Part shown: positions 1 through 48,221 of the stretch, in pieces
How positions within the stretch are numbered: position 1 is the stretch's first letter
Layout of the letters: each line of letters starts with the position of its first letter
Source of the DNA: Odontesthes bonariensis
Taxonomy: Eukaryota > Chordata > Actinopteri > Atheriniformes > Atherinopsidae
Assembly (NCBI RefSeq): GCF_027942865.1
Contig: NC_134509.1
Coordinates: 13,852,017-13,916,016 of the forward strand
Reading direction: 5' to 3'
DNA: 64,000 nt
Made by a program: the position numbers and the translations under genes
The notes under the pieces: model-generated
Seen by the model: the letters and a program-made list of their open reading frames with translations, nothing else
What the model was told of the DNA's origin: nothing
Databases searched by the model: none

Positions 1-196
1 GAAAATGTTGTAAATTATGAATATAGAGCCCCAATTGCAGTTTAAAGCTGTCAAATATACTTGAGAATTCACAGTACAGTCCTTTTGCTAATTTTTCTTT
101 GTTTTCCAGCTTTTTCTTCAAGATGTATTAGCAGTCATCCAACAGTCCAGAACAATTAAATACAACTATGCACTTTTTTTTTGTTTGTTCTCGTAG

Positions 197-211
197 GTGC
201 GAGGTCTCCAG
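197..211 (+). CDS. sh3gl2: Endophilin-A microexon 1 (15 nt)
   Basis: A 15-nt segment, GTGCGAGGTCTCCAG, lies between a T-rich acceptor ending TCGTAG and a consensus donor GTGAGC. In the phase required by the SH3 exon downstream it reads (x)GT-GCG-AGG-TCT-CCA-G, giving Ala-Arg-Ser-Pro, with the last G starting the next codon. It shares its last ten bases with three other candidate microexons at 361, 734 and 3454. Its length is a multiple of three, so inclusion or skipping keeps the frame. It would lie in the flexible linker between the BAR domain (upstream of this window) and the SH3 domain. Splice sites and phase are seen in the sequence; exon status is inferred. Confidence 0.6.
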
Positions 212-360
212 GTGAGCTAGGTCAAACTTGCTACCCCATCAGTGTACTCATCAGTTCGCTTTTTTCAATGACATCCTTTCATTTACACTGAAAACTACCC
301 CCCCCATCTCTCCATCTCTCCTTGCCTCCCTCGTGTTGTTTTCCACCTCCCCGTTTTCAG

Positions 361-372
361 CAAGGTCTCCAG
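361..372 (+). CDS. sh3gl2: Endophilin-A microexon 2 (12 nt)
   Basis: The 12-nt CAAGGTCTCCAG follows a long pyrimidine-rich tract ending TTTTCAG and is followed by GTGAGA. It reads (G)CA-AGG-TCT-CCA-G, so after another microexon it adds Ala-Arg-Ser-Pro to the linker. It is identical to the microexon at 3454-3465, and both splice sites are strong. It lies 149 bp downstream of microexon 1. The family is likely to be spliced as alternative cassettes. Confidence 0.65.
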
Positions 373-733
373 GTGAGACAAGAATGATTTTATAAAAATA
401 AATGTTCCAGACAAACATCAGAAAATCAAATGCCGTTCACTTGTTTTACAAAGACGATCTGATCAACAGTTACGATCGAAAGCTCACCAGCGGACGAGCA
501 TTTGCTCTTTCTGTTTTGCTCTCCTGTCGGTCTTTTGATCTGCCTTATTTCCCGTTTCTTTGTCTGTCCACTTCTCTTTCCATTTGGTATCCATCTTGAC
601 TTTCTTCTCACATTATTCATTACCGACCTTGTCATTGCTGCGCCCATGTCCATCCCTTCATAGTCTCTCCATCTGAAACTATGATTACTAAAATTCTTGT
701 TTCACCCCTGTTTTTCTCCTTTCCTCTTTGCAG

Positions 734-745
734 CAAGATCTCCAG
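734..745 (+). CDS. sh3gl2: Endophilin-A microexon 3 (12 nt)
   Basis: The 12-nt CAAGATCTCCAG follows TTCCTCTTTGCAG and precedes GTGAGC. It differs from the copies at 361 and 3454 by one synonymous base (AGA for AGG), so the encoded Arg-Ser-Pro is unchanged. The acceptor has a TGC immediately before the AG, which resembles the UGC context preferred by the neural microexon factor SRRM4; the other copies lack it. In-phase, frame-neutral cassette; exon status inferred from splice signals and repetition. Confidence 0.62.
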
Positions 746-1330
746 GTGAGCAAGAGTGACTGGGGAAGAGATGCCAAATCTCTCTATCACTCTTCAATTT
801 TTTCCTTCTTTGAACTTTTAAATGTGTGTTTCTTTGTCTGCATTCTTTACGTCTGCAGTCCAGTCCTGTCTCTAACCTGCGTTTTCTCTTTTGTCCATTT
901 TTGTTTAACTGTTAAAGGAATAATTTGACATTTTGTTCAGAGTTAAATGAGAGGATCCTTTTATATGTAGGACACCAGCGTTTTTCTTTGCTCCTTCTTT
1001 TAGCAAAGGGCAACAATACCTTTGGACAACAATACTTTTGTGGGGCTGTCTGACAACCGCTCAGAGCTGAAAGTCTGTCCTAATAAAAGGAAGAATTGTT
1101 GTTTTTACATAAAGATGAGATTCCAGGTTTTTTTTTTTTTTTTAGTGCAGTGTTGTCTTGTGATTGTCATCCAGAAAGGGCCTTTATACACCAAGCTGAC
1201 GATCGGCTGTCAGGCGCATGGGTGAACGCATCTCTCCTGTCTATTCAATGTCTAAATCACCATCAGCTTTGCCGGTTTCTGTCAACTTTTTCTTTTTTTC
1301 CCCCGATTTAATGTGTTGAATCGACATCAG

Positions 1331-1338
1331 GTCTGTCG
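1331..1338 (+). pseudogene. Possible decayed copy of the endophilin microexon
   Basis: The segment CAGGTCTGTCGGTGAGC resembles the repeated microexon plus donor (AAGGTCTCCAGGTGAGC). The only AG usable as an acceptor leaves 8 nt (GTCTGTCG), which would shift the frame. A pyrimidine tract lies about 30 bases upstream. This looks like a dead or dying duplicate, but chance similarity cannot be excluded for so short a match. Confidence 0.25.
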
Positions 1339-2107
1339 GTGAGCACTCTGACTGTTGGTTCACCTTACTAAATTTGAATTTTTTTATGCATTAAACTTAA
1401 AAGATTCATAAAGCATGAATTCACATAACAATCCCGATCATGTGCTACTTAGAATGGTAACACAGCTTTTTGTGTCCAGACGCATTAAAACGCGCCTTCG
1501 CTAGAACCATGTTGCATACTAAAAAACATCTAACAATTAGCTAAGTTTATACAAATCTTGCTTTCTTTATGGTTTTTTATTTGCACCCCTCTGCTCTGCA
1601 AAGTTATGTCCTCTTGAGCAGATGAAGATTGTACATCTTAGCAAGCAGTTGGATGTTGCCTTTGCAACGTGTTCAAGTGCAATTGTGTATTTTCTGCCCA
1701 GCGACAGCAGAAGAGTCTTCATCGCCACTGAATCTTGATGTCAGTTTGGTGCAGAAAACACCTACTTGTACACACAGGTGCACAAGTAATTGGATGATGA
1801 CAAGGTTTTCTCAATTTTAGCTCATTACTCTACCACAATTCATTTGAATAGAAGCATTCAAGAATATTCAACTTCAGTCGTTTTTGCTTTAATTCAGGTG
1901 GTTTAATGAAAATGTTTCTCTGCCCACTTTGGAATCGTTCTCTCATAGGCTCAAAAGTAACTATTGACTAATAAGCAGTTTTATGACCAAGTGTGACTTG
2001 TTTCATTGTTTCATGACAAATTGATGAGGTATAAAGGCCTGGAAATGATTCTGGTTGTTGAACTTACATTTTGTTGCTCTTCACTGGAACTCTCCATGTT
2101 CCATGCA

Positions 2108-2345
2108 GAGGTGACAGTACAAGTGAGGGAAGTTATCAATGGCATGAAACAAACAATTCACTCATCAGAGAGATTGTCGCAGCTTTAGGAGTGGCAACAT
2201 CAAAGATCTGGTACATTCATAAAAAAGAAGAGTAAGCAATCTGGCCATCTTAGAAGCAATAAAAGACCTGGAAGATAACAAAAGTAGAGAATCCCAATAA
2301 TCCTTTCTTTTGAAAGAAGAACCTCTTTCACCTGCATCATCAAGC
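2108..2345 (+). pseudogene. Relic of a Tc1/mariner-type transposase N-terminus
   Basis: Translation shows EVTVQVREVINGMKQ in one frame, then, after a frameshift, IREIVAALGVATSKIWYI, a recognisable helix-turn-helix of fish Tc1-like transposases. Further on, NKRPGR corresponds to the basic GRPR-like linker. In-frame stops and frame changes break the rest, and I see no DDE catalytic region, so this is a dead fragment of the DNA-binding part. It sits in an intron of the endophilin gene on the sense strand. Confidence 0.6.
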
Positions 2346-2929
2346 CATTAGATCGACTTTTGTATTGTAGATGTAATACAGAGGGTTTACCTTAAGGCAC
2401 AAGTACAGAAATTCCAATTTGTAATGCAAAAAAAATATGCCCGGTCCTGGAACAAGTTTCTTTAAACAGATGAGCTCGATGTAAATGAGTGCCAGATAAA
2501 AGCATGTACATGATGAAAGCATAACATAGCATAACAAGGTCCCCTGAAATGAGTGACCTCCTCCTTCAGGGAAGTCCACATTACAATTTTTAGAACAAAT
2601 GTGATGAATAAGAGACGCATCATAAGAAGAGAACAACATTTTAACAAGCTCTGAAGGCACCAAGAACTTAAGAAGTAGATGTTGTGTATTACTTGCAGCT
2701 ATATATATATAACAGAATGAATTCTGAATTGTAATGAGCTATACTTTCTACACAGATTCAGCCAAATGCTGTAAGCCTGATAAGATAGTGTTTTACAGTA
2801 CAGATGGATAATGACCTAGAGTAAAAACATACAGTGAAACAAACCCTAAGAGCGTCTTAATGCTAAGAAATGATTAAGTCACAAGATCTCCACCTGGCCA
2901 ATCATGCTTTTCACTTCGTGATGACAAAA

Positions 2930-3115
2930 CTGAAGGCACAAACCCTCATACAAGCACGAGCTGCAGTAAAGGTTCAACAAAGCTTCTTAAGAAGAAAAAA
3001 AACATGCTTTGTGAGATGCAGACTTCAGGTAGTTATTGACTGCAAAGGATTTACATCCAAGATTAAAAAAGAAATATTGCTTATTAAAATGTTAAACCTA
3101 CTGAATTAAAGCTGA
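2930..3115 (+). mobile_element. Possible 3' remnant of the same dispersed repeat
   Basis: The stretch around TTATTGACTGCAAAGGATTT and the later ATTAAAGCTGAAAGAC resembles the 3' part of high-copy fish repeats that I recall, possibly the tail of the Tc1-like element upstream. No inverted ends were found. The assignment is from memory and weak. Confidence 0.3.
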
Positions 3116-3453
3116 AAGACTACCTTTGCATGGCACAAGGGGCAGCGATAGGCTGATTCCACACTCAGCAAACCAACTTCAACTTAAAGAACGCTTCAAT
3201 GCTGCACCTCTACCTTTTAATATTCACAGAATTTTGATGATATTTTTTGTGTAATCCTATCAACTGGCAGAGATAGAGAATAATGTTACACAAAAGGAAT
3301 CAAACTGTTGCTTATCCTCTCATCTAACTCGAATTTGAAAATACAAGTACAGTCCCCAAAATATTCGACATCTCTTTTAAACTCTTTCTGTTCTCTAACG
3401 GTCATGTTTTGTCTCTCTTTTGCTCTGTTCCATCTTCTCTTTCCCCCTTACAG

Positions 3454-3465
3454 CAAGGTCTCCAG
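3454..3465 (+). CDS. sh3gl2: Endophilin-A microexon 4 (12 nt)
   Basis: CAAGGTCTCCAG lies between a strong acceptor (CCCCCTTACAG) and donor GTAAGC. It is identical to the microexon at 361-372. A 103-bp intron separates it from the SH3 exon. Joined to that exon, its final G completes GCC, giving Arg-Ser-Pro-Ala-Pro-Leu-Asp-Gln ahead of the SH3 domain. The phase match with the terminal exon supports a real exon. Confidence 0.7.
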
Positions 3466-3568
3466 GTAAGCCTTTAATGTGATTATTATAATCTATATGC
3501 AGCATCTGATCTCCTCCTCAAGTCTCTTCTAAGTATACTCTTCTGTCTTTATCTCCTCAACTCTCCAG

Positions 3569-3765
3569 CCCCCTTGGACCAGCCCTGCTGCCGCGCACTG
3601 TACGATTTTGACCCTGAGAATGAAGGTGAGCTAGGTTTCAAGGAAGGCGATATCATCACCCTCACCAATAAGATTGATGACAACTGGTACGAGGGGATGC
3701 TGCACGGCAACTCAGGCTTTTTTCCCATCAACTACGTGGATATCCTGGTGCCGTTGCCCCACTAA
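3569..3765 (+). CDS. sh3gl2: Endophilin-A terminal exon, SH3 domain (partial gene)
   Basis: This last coding exon starts after an acceptor (CTCTCCAG) and ends at TAA. It encodes 64 residues, nearly all one SH3 domain: the ALYDF motif, the acidic RT loop (ENEGELGF), the WYEG tryptophan motif and the GFFPINYV segment. The ending LPH and the segment EGDIITLTN fit SH3GL2 (endophilin A1) better than SH3GL1 or SH3GL3, whose endings I recall as LPQ. In this family the SH3 domain recruits synaptojanin and dynamin during synaptic vesicle endocytosis, while an N-terminal BAR domain bends membrane. The BAR exons lie upstream of the window, so the gene is partial here. Paralogue choice is by recollection; endophilin-A identity is firm. 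Confidence 0.9.
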
Positions 3766-27479: not shown

Positions 27480-27737
27480 GACTTCTCTGAAGAGAAAATT
27501 ACTTCTGCTGCATTTTGAGGACGATTTGCTGGATTTGGACTCAGAGAAAGTGAGTTGTTAAAAACAAAGTGGGCTTTCTGGCAAAATTTCATGTTGGGCA
27601 GCTGCTTTTGTTTTGATTCTCACACTCAAGGATATTATTTTTTCTTCACGCATAAGGAACTTTGGAACGGCAAAGTCTGTGTGTAAACTGACCTAATTTG
27701 TCTTTAAAGCAACTTTTTTTTTTCCCCCAGACTGCCG
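27480..27737 (+). other. foxe1: foxe1 5' UTR with a probable intron (27550-27730)
   Basis: A donor, GAGAAA|GTGAGTTG, lies at 27550, and a strong acceptor, a T run then CCCCCAG, ends at 27730, eight bases before the start codon. This predicts a non-coding first exon ending at 27549 and a 181-bp intron. I recall mammalian FOXE1 as a single-exon gene. The transcription start is not defined; no TATA box is obvious. Confidence 0.5.
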
Positions 27738-28838
27738 ATGACAATGCCAGTAGTCAAAGTGGAGAAAGAGTCTCCAGCAGACACCAAATTGCCTTCCTCC
27801 AGTCCTCCACCACAGACAGAGGAGCAGCCCAGAGGTCGCAGGAGGAAGAGACCCCTACAGCGGGGGAAACCACCATACAGCTACATTGCACTCATTTCCA
27901 TGGCTATTGCCAACTCTCCTGATCGCAAACTCACACTGGGGGGCATCTACAAATTCATCACAGAGCGCTTCCCCTTCTACAGAGACAATTCAAAGAAGTG
28001 GCAAAACTCCATTCGTCATAACCTGACACTCAATGATTGCTTTATCAAGATTCCTCGAGAGCCGGGACGACCTGGGAAGGGCAACTATTGGGCATTGGAC
28101 CCCAACGCAGAGGACATGTTTGAGAGTGGCAGCTTTTTGAGGCGCAGGAAGAGGTTTAAGCGCTGTGACTTGAGCACCTATGCCGCTTACGTGCATGAGA
28201 CGCCAGTTTTCTCCCCTGTTCAGATTACCAGATCAGCTGCATACACCAATTCAGTCTACTCCAACATGACAGTCAGCCCTACCTACGGACAGCAGCTGCC
28301 CTCTGCCTATTATCCCTCCTCGTCCCCTCCCGGGTTCGGACATGGTCAGACTCGGATGTTCAGCATCAATAACATCATAGGACACCAAACCACTGCAGGC
28401 ATGCTGGCAGGTCAAGGGACAGAGATGATGCAGCAGCCCAGCCGAGGCTTCAGTTCCGAGGGGCTTCTTAATGGATCTGGCCCCTGCAGCCTGGGAGGCC
28501 CGGGTTTCCAGAGTCAGCCGTGCGGGGGAGCCGTGCCACCTCGCTCCTCCACACATCCAGGGTTCACCTACTCAGGACCAAACAGCCATCCACACAACCA
28601 TGCCCACCAGGGCTCATATGGACAGGCTCACGCTCAGGGCTATGCAGCAACTGGCCGGATGCACGCCTCAGCTCACGGGTCTGCAGAAACAGTGGACCAT
28701 TACGGAAGGGTCTCCCCAGTGCAGCTGGGCTCTTTCTCCCAGTATAACAGTGCAGCAGGTCCTGTTGCAAACACCGGGGCATACCTGAGACACCCAACAT
28801 ACCCCGGGAACATGGACCGGTTCGTGTCTGCGATATAA
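27738..28838 (+). CDS. foxe1: Forkhead box protein E1
   Basis: A 366-residue protein in one coding exon. The forkhead (winged-helix) DNA-binding domain spans about residues 43-142, with [10 protein letters not shown] at its start, recognition helix [11 protein letters not shown] at 90-100, and the basic wing RRRKRFKR at the end. The flank [17 protein letters not shown] and the terminal DRFVSA motif identify the FOXE1 class, a transcription factor needed in vertebrates for thyroid, palate and craniofacial cartilage development. The rest is a Ser/Gly/His/Pro-rich tail, with no alanine tract such as the one in human FOXE1. Two ATGs (27738 and 27744) are in frame; the first gives MTMPVVKVE and the second may be used instead. 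It is the nearest gene to the large upstream desert and converges with spag5 downstream. Confidence 0.95.
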
Positions 28839-45556: not shown

Positions 45557-47298
45557 TCACACTGAGGCAAAGTGGCGCTCAACAGGTCGGACCTGCAGTA
45601 CTTCAGCGAAACCTTGTCCAAACCAGCAGGTGATGTCAGCCGTGTCGAGGGTGAAGAAGAAGAGTCTGTCTCTGCAGCGACTCCTCCTGTACACTGACCT
45701 GGGGTCTGCCGACAGCACGCCCTTGATGGCAGCTGCAGCCTCCTCTGGACTACGCAGAAACTTAAAGCCGGGTCTGTCACTTTCAGAGGGTCCTGTGTGA
45801 GAGAAACTGTTTTGGGTTTTTTTCTCTGCTCTGTTATGGATGACTGCTCTCCAGTTAATCTCAATCACAACGGCACCCTCTTGTGGCGAGAAATACATGA
45901 GCCTCGGCTCTGCTAACTGTGGGTCTTACCTGACAGGTGTGAGGGAAGGAATTCTGCCAGCTGCTTCTCAGCATGCGGAGTGAAGCGCACATCCAAACTG
46001 GCAACAGGAGGCTCTCTAATCCAGCCAGCAATGGTTGTGTAGGCCTCTTCTCCATAGCAGGGGTGGTCCACGTTGAGCGCTGATGGATTAGGTTTTGCAG
46101 AATCGGAAACTCGGGACTTGCTCTCACAACCATGTTGTGACGTGTCCTCCTGGGTCACAAAGGTCTCTACCTCTACCAGAAAATTGCGAAGATCTTTTGA
46201 CTGAAGAAACTGTTCACTGATGCCAGTTTCAGATTTATCTTCTGAGGCGAGAATCCCCACATCATCCTCCATTCTTTTTATGTTAAACTGAGCGTCTGTG
46301 TCTGAGTCTTCATTAAGGTTTAGGATGCTCGTCTCCTTGTTGAGCGACATGATCGTTCCATTCTGTTGGTCTGTGTCTGAGTCCTGCTGGAGTAAGTCCA
46401 GATTAATCCTGGTGTCAGGGGAGTCATACTGAGGAATGTAGGGTTTGATGTCCAGGACAGGCGTGCCAGCGATCATATCAATGTCCAACAGATGTACTGT
46501 GTCACCTAGAAAATAAAGAAATAGACTTGTGTCTTTCAAAACATATTTATCTTATTCTCCAATTAATATCACATCTGATAGTAGAACATTTAGACTGACG
46601 GATGGTTAAAGGTGTTAGAAATTTGACCATCAAAAGCCCCATGTAGATGGGACTAACATTACAGGAGGGCGTTGAGCATTAAAAAATTGTGGGATGCAAC
46701 AGATGAGCAACAAAATGGTGAGGGTTGCGTCAGGAAGGGCATCCGGCGTAAAAAATGTGCCAAATCAATGATGCGAGATCAACTCACTGTGGGAAACCCC
46801 TGATAAAGGGAGAGGCTGAAAGAAGAAGAAGAACAGATGAGCAACGGGTCTGCAGGAGCAGTCAACAGACAATGGCACAACCTATGTGTGGCTGCCATGT
46901 TATCCCCTCATTGGATAAGCTTTTTGCTCTCTTCACAGATTAAAAGGGGCCTTGGTTCTTCTTCATAAGACATGAGGTTTGCAGGGGGGGGGCAAGTTTT
47001 TTGGGGAGTCTCTTAAAATTTTGCCAGGCATTTCTAGCCAGAGAGCAGTGAAAACTTGAGAGAAATTGAAAGAGAGAAAAACCCTATTTTGTTGCTCATT
47101 TCATACATAATTCGCGATATGAAATGTGAAGAAAAAACAGAATAGTGTCAAAATATTGTAACCCCTTAAAAAAAAAAAAAAAAAAAATCTGCAAATTATC
47201 ATTTAGAGGAAGCTTTTCTCTTTTTAAGAGGAACCAAGCCTCCTTTGGTGTGTAATGTTAAAATTGGTGAAAGGCTGCTGTGCTCTGCTAATTATGTA

Positions 47299-47334
<36 letters not shown>

Positions 47335-48221
47335 GTGTTTACAAAGTGTCTGAGAGGAATCCAAAAAAAATGCCCCCCTCAGTTCACAGGTTGTATGCAT
47401 GACTTGCTGTCTGGTAATTACAAGCTCACATGTTCCATTTAAAGGCAGTGAATGACACATCCTCAAGTTACATCATTTCTTACGAAAGAAATAGCCTGAG
47501 TAACGTTATCTAATGTTATGTTGCTCACTAAACAAGTCAACTAACTACACAGCTACCGTAGCTAGCGTTATGTGGCAGACAGCAATGGGGCATCTCAGTG
47601 GTGTTACTCATAGTCAGAACATCCATACTACGAGTGTGTTAAAGGTCCCCTTAATGTTTATAACATTAGCACACACATTAATTTGGAGGCTAGTAGGAGT
47701 CACTGGTCAGACTTTGTAGGAAGCCAGCTCTCTTTGGCATTAATGAGTTGCGCAGCAGCTAATGGAAGAAAGAAATCATGCTGTGTGGCAGTGAAAATGC
47801 TGTGTTACCAAGTACAATTACACTTAATGATATAAAATCTTTCTTTGGATTTGAAAATTGTTGGAAACATTAACACAATCACACAGGCTGCAAAACGTTG
47901 CTGTTCCATATCAAACCTTTTAATGAAGCTCACCTTCAATTTTGTCCAGCTTTGCGAGCGTCAGGCCCAAGGCGTTTGGTCGGTGTGGACTGCGTGTCGA
48001 GTACACACCGGCTCTCTGACCGTTCAGTCGAGGAGGCTTCACTTTGGCTTTGTAGCTCAGGTGCCCATTTTTGTGAAAGAGAAAAATGATCCTGGGAAGA
48101 TTCGAAAAAGGAGAAAGAAGGTGACAAGAAATAAACAGTTGATACACAGTGGTGGTAAAATGAAACAAATGTTTGATTGAAGCTTCACAAAAAAAAATTA
48201 CGATTTTTCAAATTCTGTTTT

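Follow-up and report, generated by a model that had tools for sequence, protein, structure and literature searches.

An endophilin-A1-type gene with candidate microexons

The window analysed here, a stretch of 64,000 nucleotides from Odontesthes bonariensis, opens inside a gene whose 3′ part holds four very short candidate exons (u1-u4) followed by a terminal exon encoding an SH3 domain (Table 1). The first-pass annotation of this DNA had placed an endophilin SH3 domain after an array of microexons, and this was borne out: the best PDB match of the terminal-exon SH3 domain was endophilin-A1 (3.3e-38), Pfam SH3 families matched it too, and N-BAR exons lay upstream in the gene. Specifically, BAR exons were located directly upstream of the array on the same strand, with Pfam BAR matches at the same place. 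We rebuilt the gene on the source contig (C4) together with 100 kb of upstream sequence, by similarity to a mammalian endophilin-A1, and set its exon borders from similarity and splice signals. The rebuilt gene comprised eight exons, then the four microexons, then the terminal SH3 exon; the encoded protein had 346 residues when the array was skipped and 363 when every microexon was included. The best protein matches (best 120 of 1133) carried the name sh3gl2a, and the closest protein among the matches listed, over the first 275 residues, came from the atherinopsid Leuresthes tenuis (97.5%). Judged from these matches, the host of the array is an endophilin-A1 gene of the sh3gl2a type. As a side observation, the donor of exon 2 (C4:13846075/13846076) was apparently GC (AAG/GCATGT), while the paralog on contig C24 has GT at this point (AAG/GTGATC).

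Table 1. Features of the array and of the remaining window. Positions are those of the window unless a contig is named.
Feature	Position	Strand	Remarks
Linker exon	C4:13851485-13851600	+	phase 1 at its 3′ end
Intron before u1, 3′ part	1..196	+	linker exon itself outside the window
Candidate microexon u1	197..211	+	15 nt, phase 1-1; G-A-R-S-P with flanking split codons
Intron u1-u2	212..360	+	149 nt
Candidate microexon u2	361..372	+	12 nt, encodes A-R-S-P
Intron u2-u3	373..733	+	361 nt
Candidate microexon u3	734..745	+	12 nt, A-R-S-P, synonymous AGA codon
Intron u3-u4	746..3453	+	2708 nt
Candidate microexon u4	3454..3465	+	12 nt, encodes A-R-S-P
Last intron	3466..3568	+	103 nt
Terminal exon, coding part	3569..3765	+	split codon and PLDQ, SH3 domain, stop TAA
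Forkhead frame	27708..28838	+	single open frame
TrmO_N frames	45916..48207	-	two open frames

Anatomy and splice sites of the array

The four segments were present exactly where they had been described, each with an acceptor AG after a pyrimidine-rich tract and a donor of its own (GTGAG in u1, u2 and u3, GTAAG in u4). When splice sites were scored with splice-site tables against the GT/AG sites in the 29 kb of gene upstream, the array donors outscored at least 99.8% of those sites and the array acceptors at least 96.8%. With lengths of 12-15 nt and both splice sites present, u1-u4 were well below the limit of 27-30 nt that is applied to microexons. The preceding linker exon, the last base of which lies 417 bases before the first base of the window, ends with ...NHNGGMHGARSP (...NGGMHGARSP). 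The common phase that had been proposed for the units and the SH3 exon was recovered, in that the terminal exon continues the phase in which the linker exon ends, and the further claim that any combination would keep the frame held as well: all 16 inclusion patterns of u1-u4 were open in the rebuilt gene and gave eight distinct proteins of 346-363 aa.

A UGC element near the acceptor is a mark of neuronal microexons regulated by Srrm3/4. In all four units a TGC occurred within 60 nt upstream of the acceptor, but this was also true of four of the eight other acceptors of the gene, and Srrm3/4-type control of the array is therefore unsupported. Likewise, CT-rich stretches preceded u2-u4, but also the terminal exon. 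The UGC and GCATG motifs near the array were set aside as uninformative.

That the segments are chance 12-mers or parts of a repeat element in an intron, and not exons, is a reading to which we assign practically no probability. The unit is short and the u3-u4 intron appears partly transposon-like by eye, both of which would fit it; against it stand the shuffle controls and the copy number of the region. The pattern AGRTCTCCAGGTRAG had four matches in the 64-kb window at up to two mismatches, where shuffles gave a mean of 0.41 and none of 100 reached four, and a longer pattern that included the acceptor again had four (up to three mismatches; shuffle mean 0.02). An exact 15-mer of unit and donor occurred seven times in the 945-Mb genome, four of these in the array, with eight occurrences for the reversed-pattern control; just before the three other matches, a pyrimidine-rich acceptor was absent by eye. 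Two of these three, on C27 and C20, could be the 3′ ends of ordinary exons of other genes. A scan of the 106-kb gene region for microexons (strict acceptor and donor, 9-30 nt, phase-compatible) returned six candidates, five of them open, and the array accounted for four of the open ones. Chance 12-mers were thus ruled out by the shuffles and the whole-genome count, and a repeat-element origin of u1-u3 by the first 1000 bases of the window, which are single copy in the genome. Moreover, the same peptide units were found in the gene models of other fishes.

Origin of the units and paralogous loci

A fifth copy of the unit forms the tail of the preceding linker exon, just outside the window. This tail and u1 encode the same five residues, G-A-R-S-P, with GTGAGA next to the tail and GTGAGC next to u1, and the two are identical at 17 of 21 bases. 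At a threshold of at least 15/18 matching bases to u2 plus its donor, both strands of the 106-kb gene region yielded u1-u4, the tail of the linker exon and nothing else, with no match elsewhere in the window or in 110 kb from four paralogous loci. The five units differed at synonymous positions only (Ala GCT/GCG/GCA; Arg CGC/AGG/AGA). Beyond the splice sites, the similarity of the flanks did not clearly exceed that of shuffled sequence (0.06 was the lowest fraction across 16 pair tests), and they could not be aligned, such that the similarity among the copies was confined to exon and donor. Dating of the duplications by shared flanks gave nothing clear and hence no clock estimate.

By the criterion used for tandem duplicated exons, the copies appear homologous among themselves and with a source exon. 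The microexons would then have arisen when the linker-exon tail and the 5′ splice site adjoining it were copied in short duplications, and on the simplest reading these duplications are old, with the peptide and splice sites retained and the remainder diverged. We consider it very probable that u1-u4 are duplicated microexons whose inclusion is optional.

The closest paralog, on C24, encodes an SH3 domain that is 89% identical, and its linker exon (C24:5455831-5455961), which ends with ...HSAKSPGRSP, contains the unit twice (AKSP-GRSP). Two units of a similar type, AKSPARSP or TKSPARSP, also occur in three proteins named sh3gl2b, and because of this we infer that the C24 paralog is of the sh3gl2b type. 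One duplicate thus seems to hold the repeat inside an exon and the other in separate small exons. Neither the strict scan nor 15/18 matching detected an array in the paralogs on C24, C20, C19 and C12, for which 20-30 kb from each locus (30 kb for C24) and 110 kb together were searched; the strict scan yielded three open candidates there, none of which coded for an RSP peptide. Related proteins of Pseudoliparis and Lampris show further repeats of the doubled-unit type. Separately, C12:39975387-39975572 belongs to a divergent endophilin-A-like gene, with an SH3 domain that is 61% identical over 62 residues and strongly changed BAR exons.

Unit number in proteins of other fishes

Three protein searches (best 120 each of 1133, 1562 and 1503 matches) gave 172 distinct proteins together; the linker was recognised in 166 and could be parsed into whole units in 134. 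These 134 listed proteins, a mix of sh3gl2a, sh3gl2b and related copies, had one unit in 80 cases, two in 38, three in 10, four in 4 and five in 2. The other 32 of the 166 linkers were unparsed, because the sequence continued past a unit donor, the terminal acceptor was altered or the repeats were of another kind. Several annotated isoforms (P0011, P0015, P0021, P0107 and others) had a terminal exon that was extended upstream or a read-through after a unit donor (GE...), which suggests either additional alternative splice sites near the array or noise in the annotation. All isoforms from other species are pipeline gene models, in which units were assigned to exons from the protein alone.

Among the matches listed there were 78 parsed extra units, with Arg or Lys at residue 2 in 77 and Ser or Thr at residue 3 in 78, a count that is valid for the parsed set only; the parse itself required Pro at position 4, and units that break the pattern, such as GRAP in a protein of Esox, are found among the unparsed linkers. 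Five-residue units came first in 16 of 16 cases in the proteins listed. The full isoform of the rebuilt gene has counterparts in X3 of Nothobranchius furzeri and X2 of Eleginops maclovinus, both of 363 aa and with extra units of 5+4+4+4 residues.

To follow isoforms within species, we used a set of 55 of the best 120 proteins, from 48 species, hand-picked for unambiguous names and clean linkers; among the entries left out were several from N. furzeri that had odd linkers or a single unit. Seven species in this set had two isoforms, and the unit number differed in all seven pairs. In Etheostoma cragini, X5 had four units versus three in X12. Outside the set, linkers were equal across the entries of one species in Pygocentrus, Colossoma and Megalops, all of which lack an extra unit, and one linker was likewise common to some entries of N. 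furzeri.

The nearest listed relative, the Leuresthes tenuis protein (cluster of 73 sequences), had two units, not five. Outside the percomorphs, four units were present in Esox lucius X1, three in Gadus morhua X3 and two in Aplochiton taeniatus. A single unit was found in the listed A1-type proteins, apart from a few unreadable ones, of species that we take to be otophysans (sh3gl2a), clupeids, elopomorphs and polypterids. Readable sh3gl2a linkers of cyprinids had one unit, and zebrafish might therefore lack the array. Scleropages and the mormyrids Paramormyrops and Brienomyrus had two units in the proteins listed, while two salmonid proteins, one of them named endophilin A2, had one unit each. 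The first-pass annotation had named an absence of the units from close relatives as evidence that would tell against a tandem microexon family; this was not what we observed, as listed teleost sh3gl2a proteins had 1-5 units, and the anatomy together with the varying unit number in the gene models of other teleosts supports that reading.

Linker properties and a possible tuning role

In a 2025 review, endophilin-A linkers are reported to be 37-58 residues long, to bear modification sites and to influence function yet to be poorly characterised; swapped linkers altered endocytic function, and for every human endophilin-A more than one splice variant is described, several in each case (PMC12457278). 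By the borders set here, the linker of the rebuilt protein comprised 41-58 residues, depending on the units. Each unit lengthens it and adds a charge of +1 and one Ser-Pro site. Additionally, a 12-nt unit completes an S-P-x-R site, because the preceding Ser-Pro is then followed by A-R, so that there is one full site per 12-nt unit included (0 to 3) and none from u1. S-P-x-R is a CDK-type consensus, used here as a lead only. The repeats formed no PxxP motif (SH3 ligand). For the N. furzeri protein P0003, structure prediction gave a model of low confidence overall (mean pLDDT 62), in which linker residues 250-302 had pLDDT below 50.

Since all units share one phase, the number of units could vary in frame from one (linker exon alone) to five, and splicing would set this number while the reading frame is kept. 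Each unit would have a graded effect on linker length, charge and Ser-Pro sites, and inclusion may be regulated, phosphorylation may occur, and the reach or autoinhibition of the SH3 domain may be affected. Most likely, the array is a splice-tuned linker to which units add length, charge and Ser-Pro sites; whether this tuning serves a function we judge to be an even call.

The microexons could instead be real and (nearly) constitutive, with the unit number fixed per gene and isoforms with fewer units representing annotation or splicing noise. The very strong donors and good acceptors, equal to or above those of the constitutive exons of the gene, are what such a state would predict, but the isoform pairs of unequal unit number in seven hand-picked species and the range of 1-5 units in listed models render it quite improbable. 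Somewhat unlikely, in our estimate, is that the microexons are used and functionally neutral, as short in-frame duplications of an exon tail that are tolerated in a disordered linker, a reading that shares the anatomy of optional duplicated microexons with the preferred one. It agrees with a linker modelled at very low confidence, as expected for disorder, with the differences in unit number among species, and with the 32 unparsed linkers, which suggest loose splicing or annotation. It sits poorly with a peptide that was kept here through synonymous changes only while the flanks diverged, and with the near-invariant Arg/Lys and Ser/Thr positions of the parsed extra units in other fishes (77 and 78 of 78, respectively), although constraint on splice signals alone may explain part of this conservation.

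The splice-tuned linker could be extended to a phospho-rheostat, a proposal that we rate as unlikely in its entirety. Neurons of euteleosts would choose among 1-5 Arg-Ser-Pro units and gain one S-P-x-R site beside the SH3 domain per 12-nt unit; graded phosphorylation would flip the linker from basic to acidic and tune the availability of the SH3 domain in synaptic endocytosis, and the sh3gl2b-type paralog would keep a fixed two-unit version.

Comparison with known systems

Vertebrate neuronal microexons are mostly single cassettes, whereas the endophilin array presents one unit four times. In other respects the two are alike, as those microexons (Srrm3/4; PMC12626424, PMC12626420) are up to about 30 nt long, in-frame and optional, and belong to nervous-system genes; sh3gl/endophilin did not appear in the main text of these two zebrafish microexon papers. 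As the first-pass annotation had supposed, no earlier description of the array was found in the open PMC literature, taken as main papers apart from supplements, where a splicing table could list the exons; the isoforms already exist as NCBI/UniProt gene models. The novelty is in the combination only, an additive tandem array of microexons, as microexons and tandem exons are each well known.

Schistosome micro-exon genes (MEGs) are parasite genes built largely of short symmetrical exons. Their runs of such exons resemble the array, with no relation between the two shown. In tandem duplicated exon substitution events, the exons are reportedly longer than the endophilin units. These events also involve adjacent exon copies in alternative use, but in the excerpted text they are mutually exclusive (PMC9741552), whereas the endophilin copies are additive in the gene models of other fishes. 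There, several units occur within one protein, and not one copy per transcript. Within the endophilin family, Endophilin-B1 (Bif-1/SH3GLB1) also has microexons (PMC5891588; EndoB in PMC8797185), but it is another gene, in which they lie within the N-BAR domain and, in the excerpted text, are not described as a repeat (PMC5891588). RPS24 has three consecutive microexons of 3, 18 and 22 nt that are variously combined; unlike the endophilin units, they are unequal in size, one is not a multiple of three, and the excerpted text does not present them as copies of each other (PMC11162997).

If the copying reading is right, a microexon may be born as a copy of an exon tail and its donor site, and the newborn microexon would then have multiplied into an additive, frame-safe array. 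In the proteins listed, repeated units occur in many spiny-rayed fishes as well as in cod and pike. The array is located in a core gene of synaptic endocytosis and offers a natural series of linkers that differ stepwise by one identical unit.

Additional features of the window

Elsewhere in the window, a single open frame matched the forkhead domain (Pfam, 4.5e-38) and is presumably FoxE-like, and two open frames on the reverse strand matched TrmO_N (tRNA-methyltransferase O). Finally, a putative Tc1/mariner-like remnant was noted by eye at positions 2050-3150, within the u3-u4 intron.
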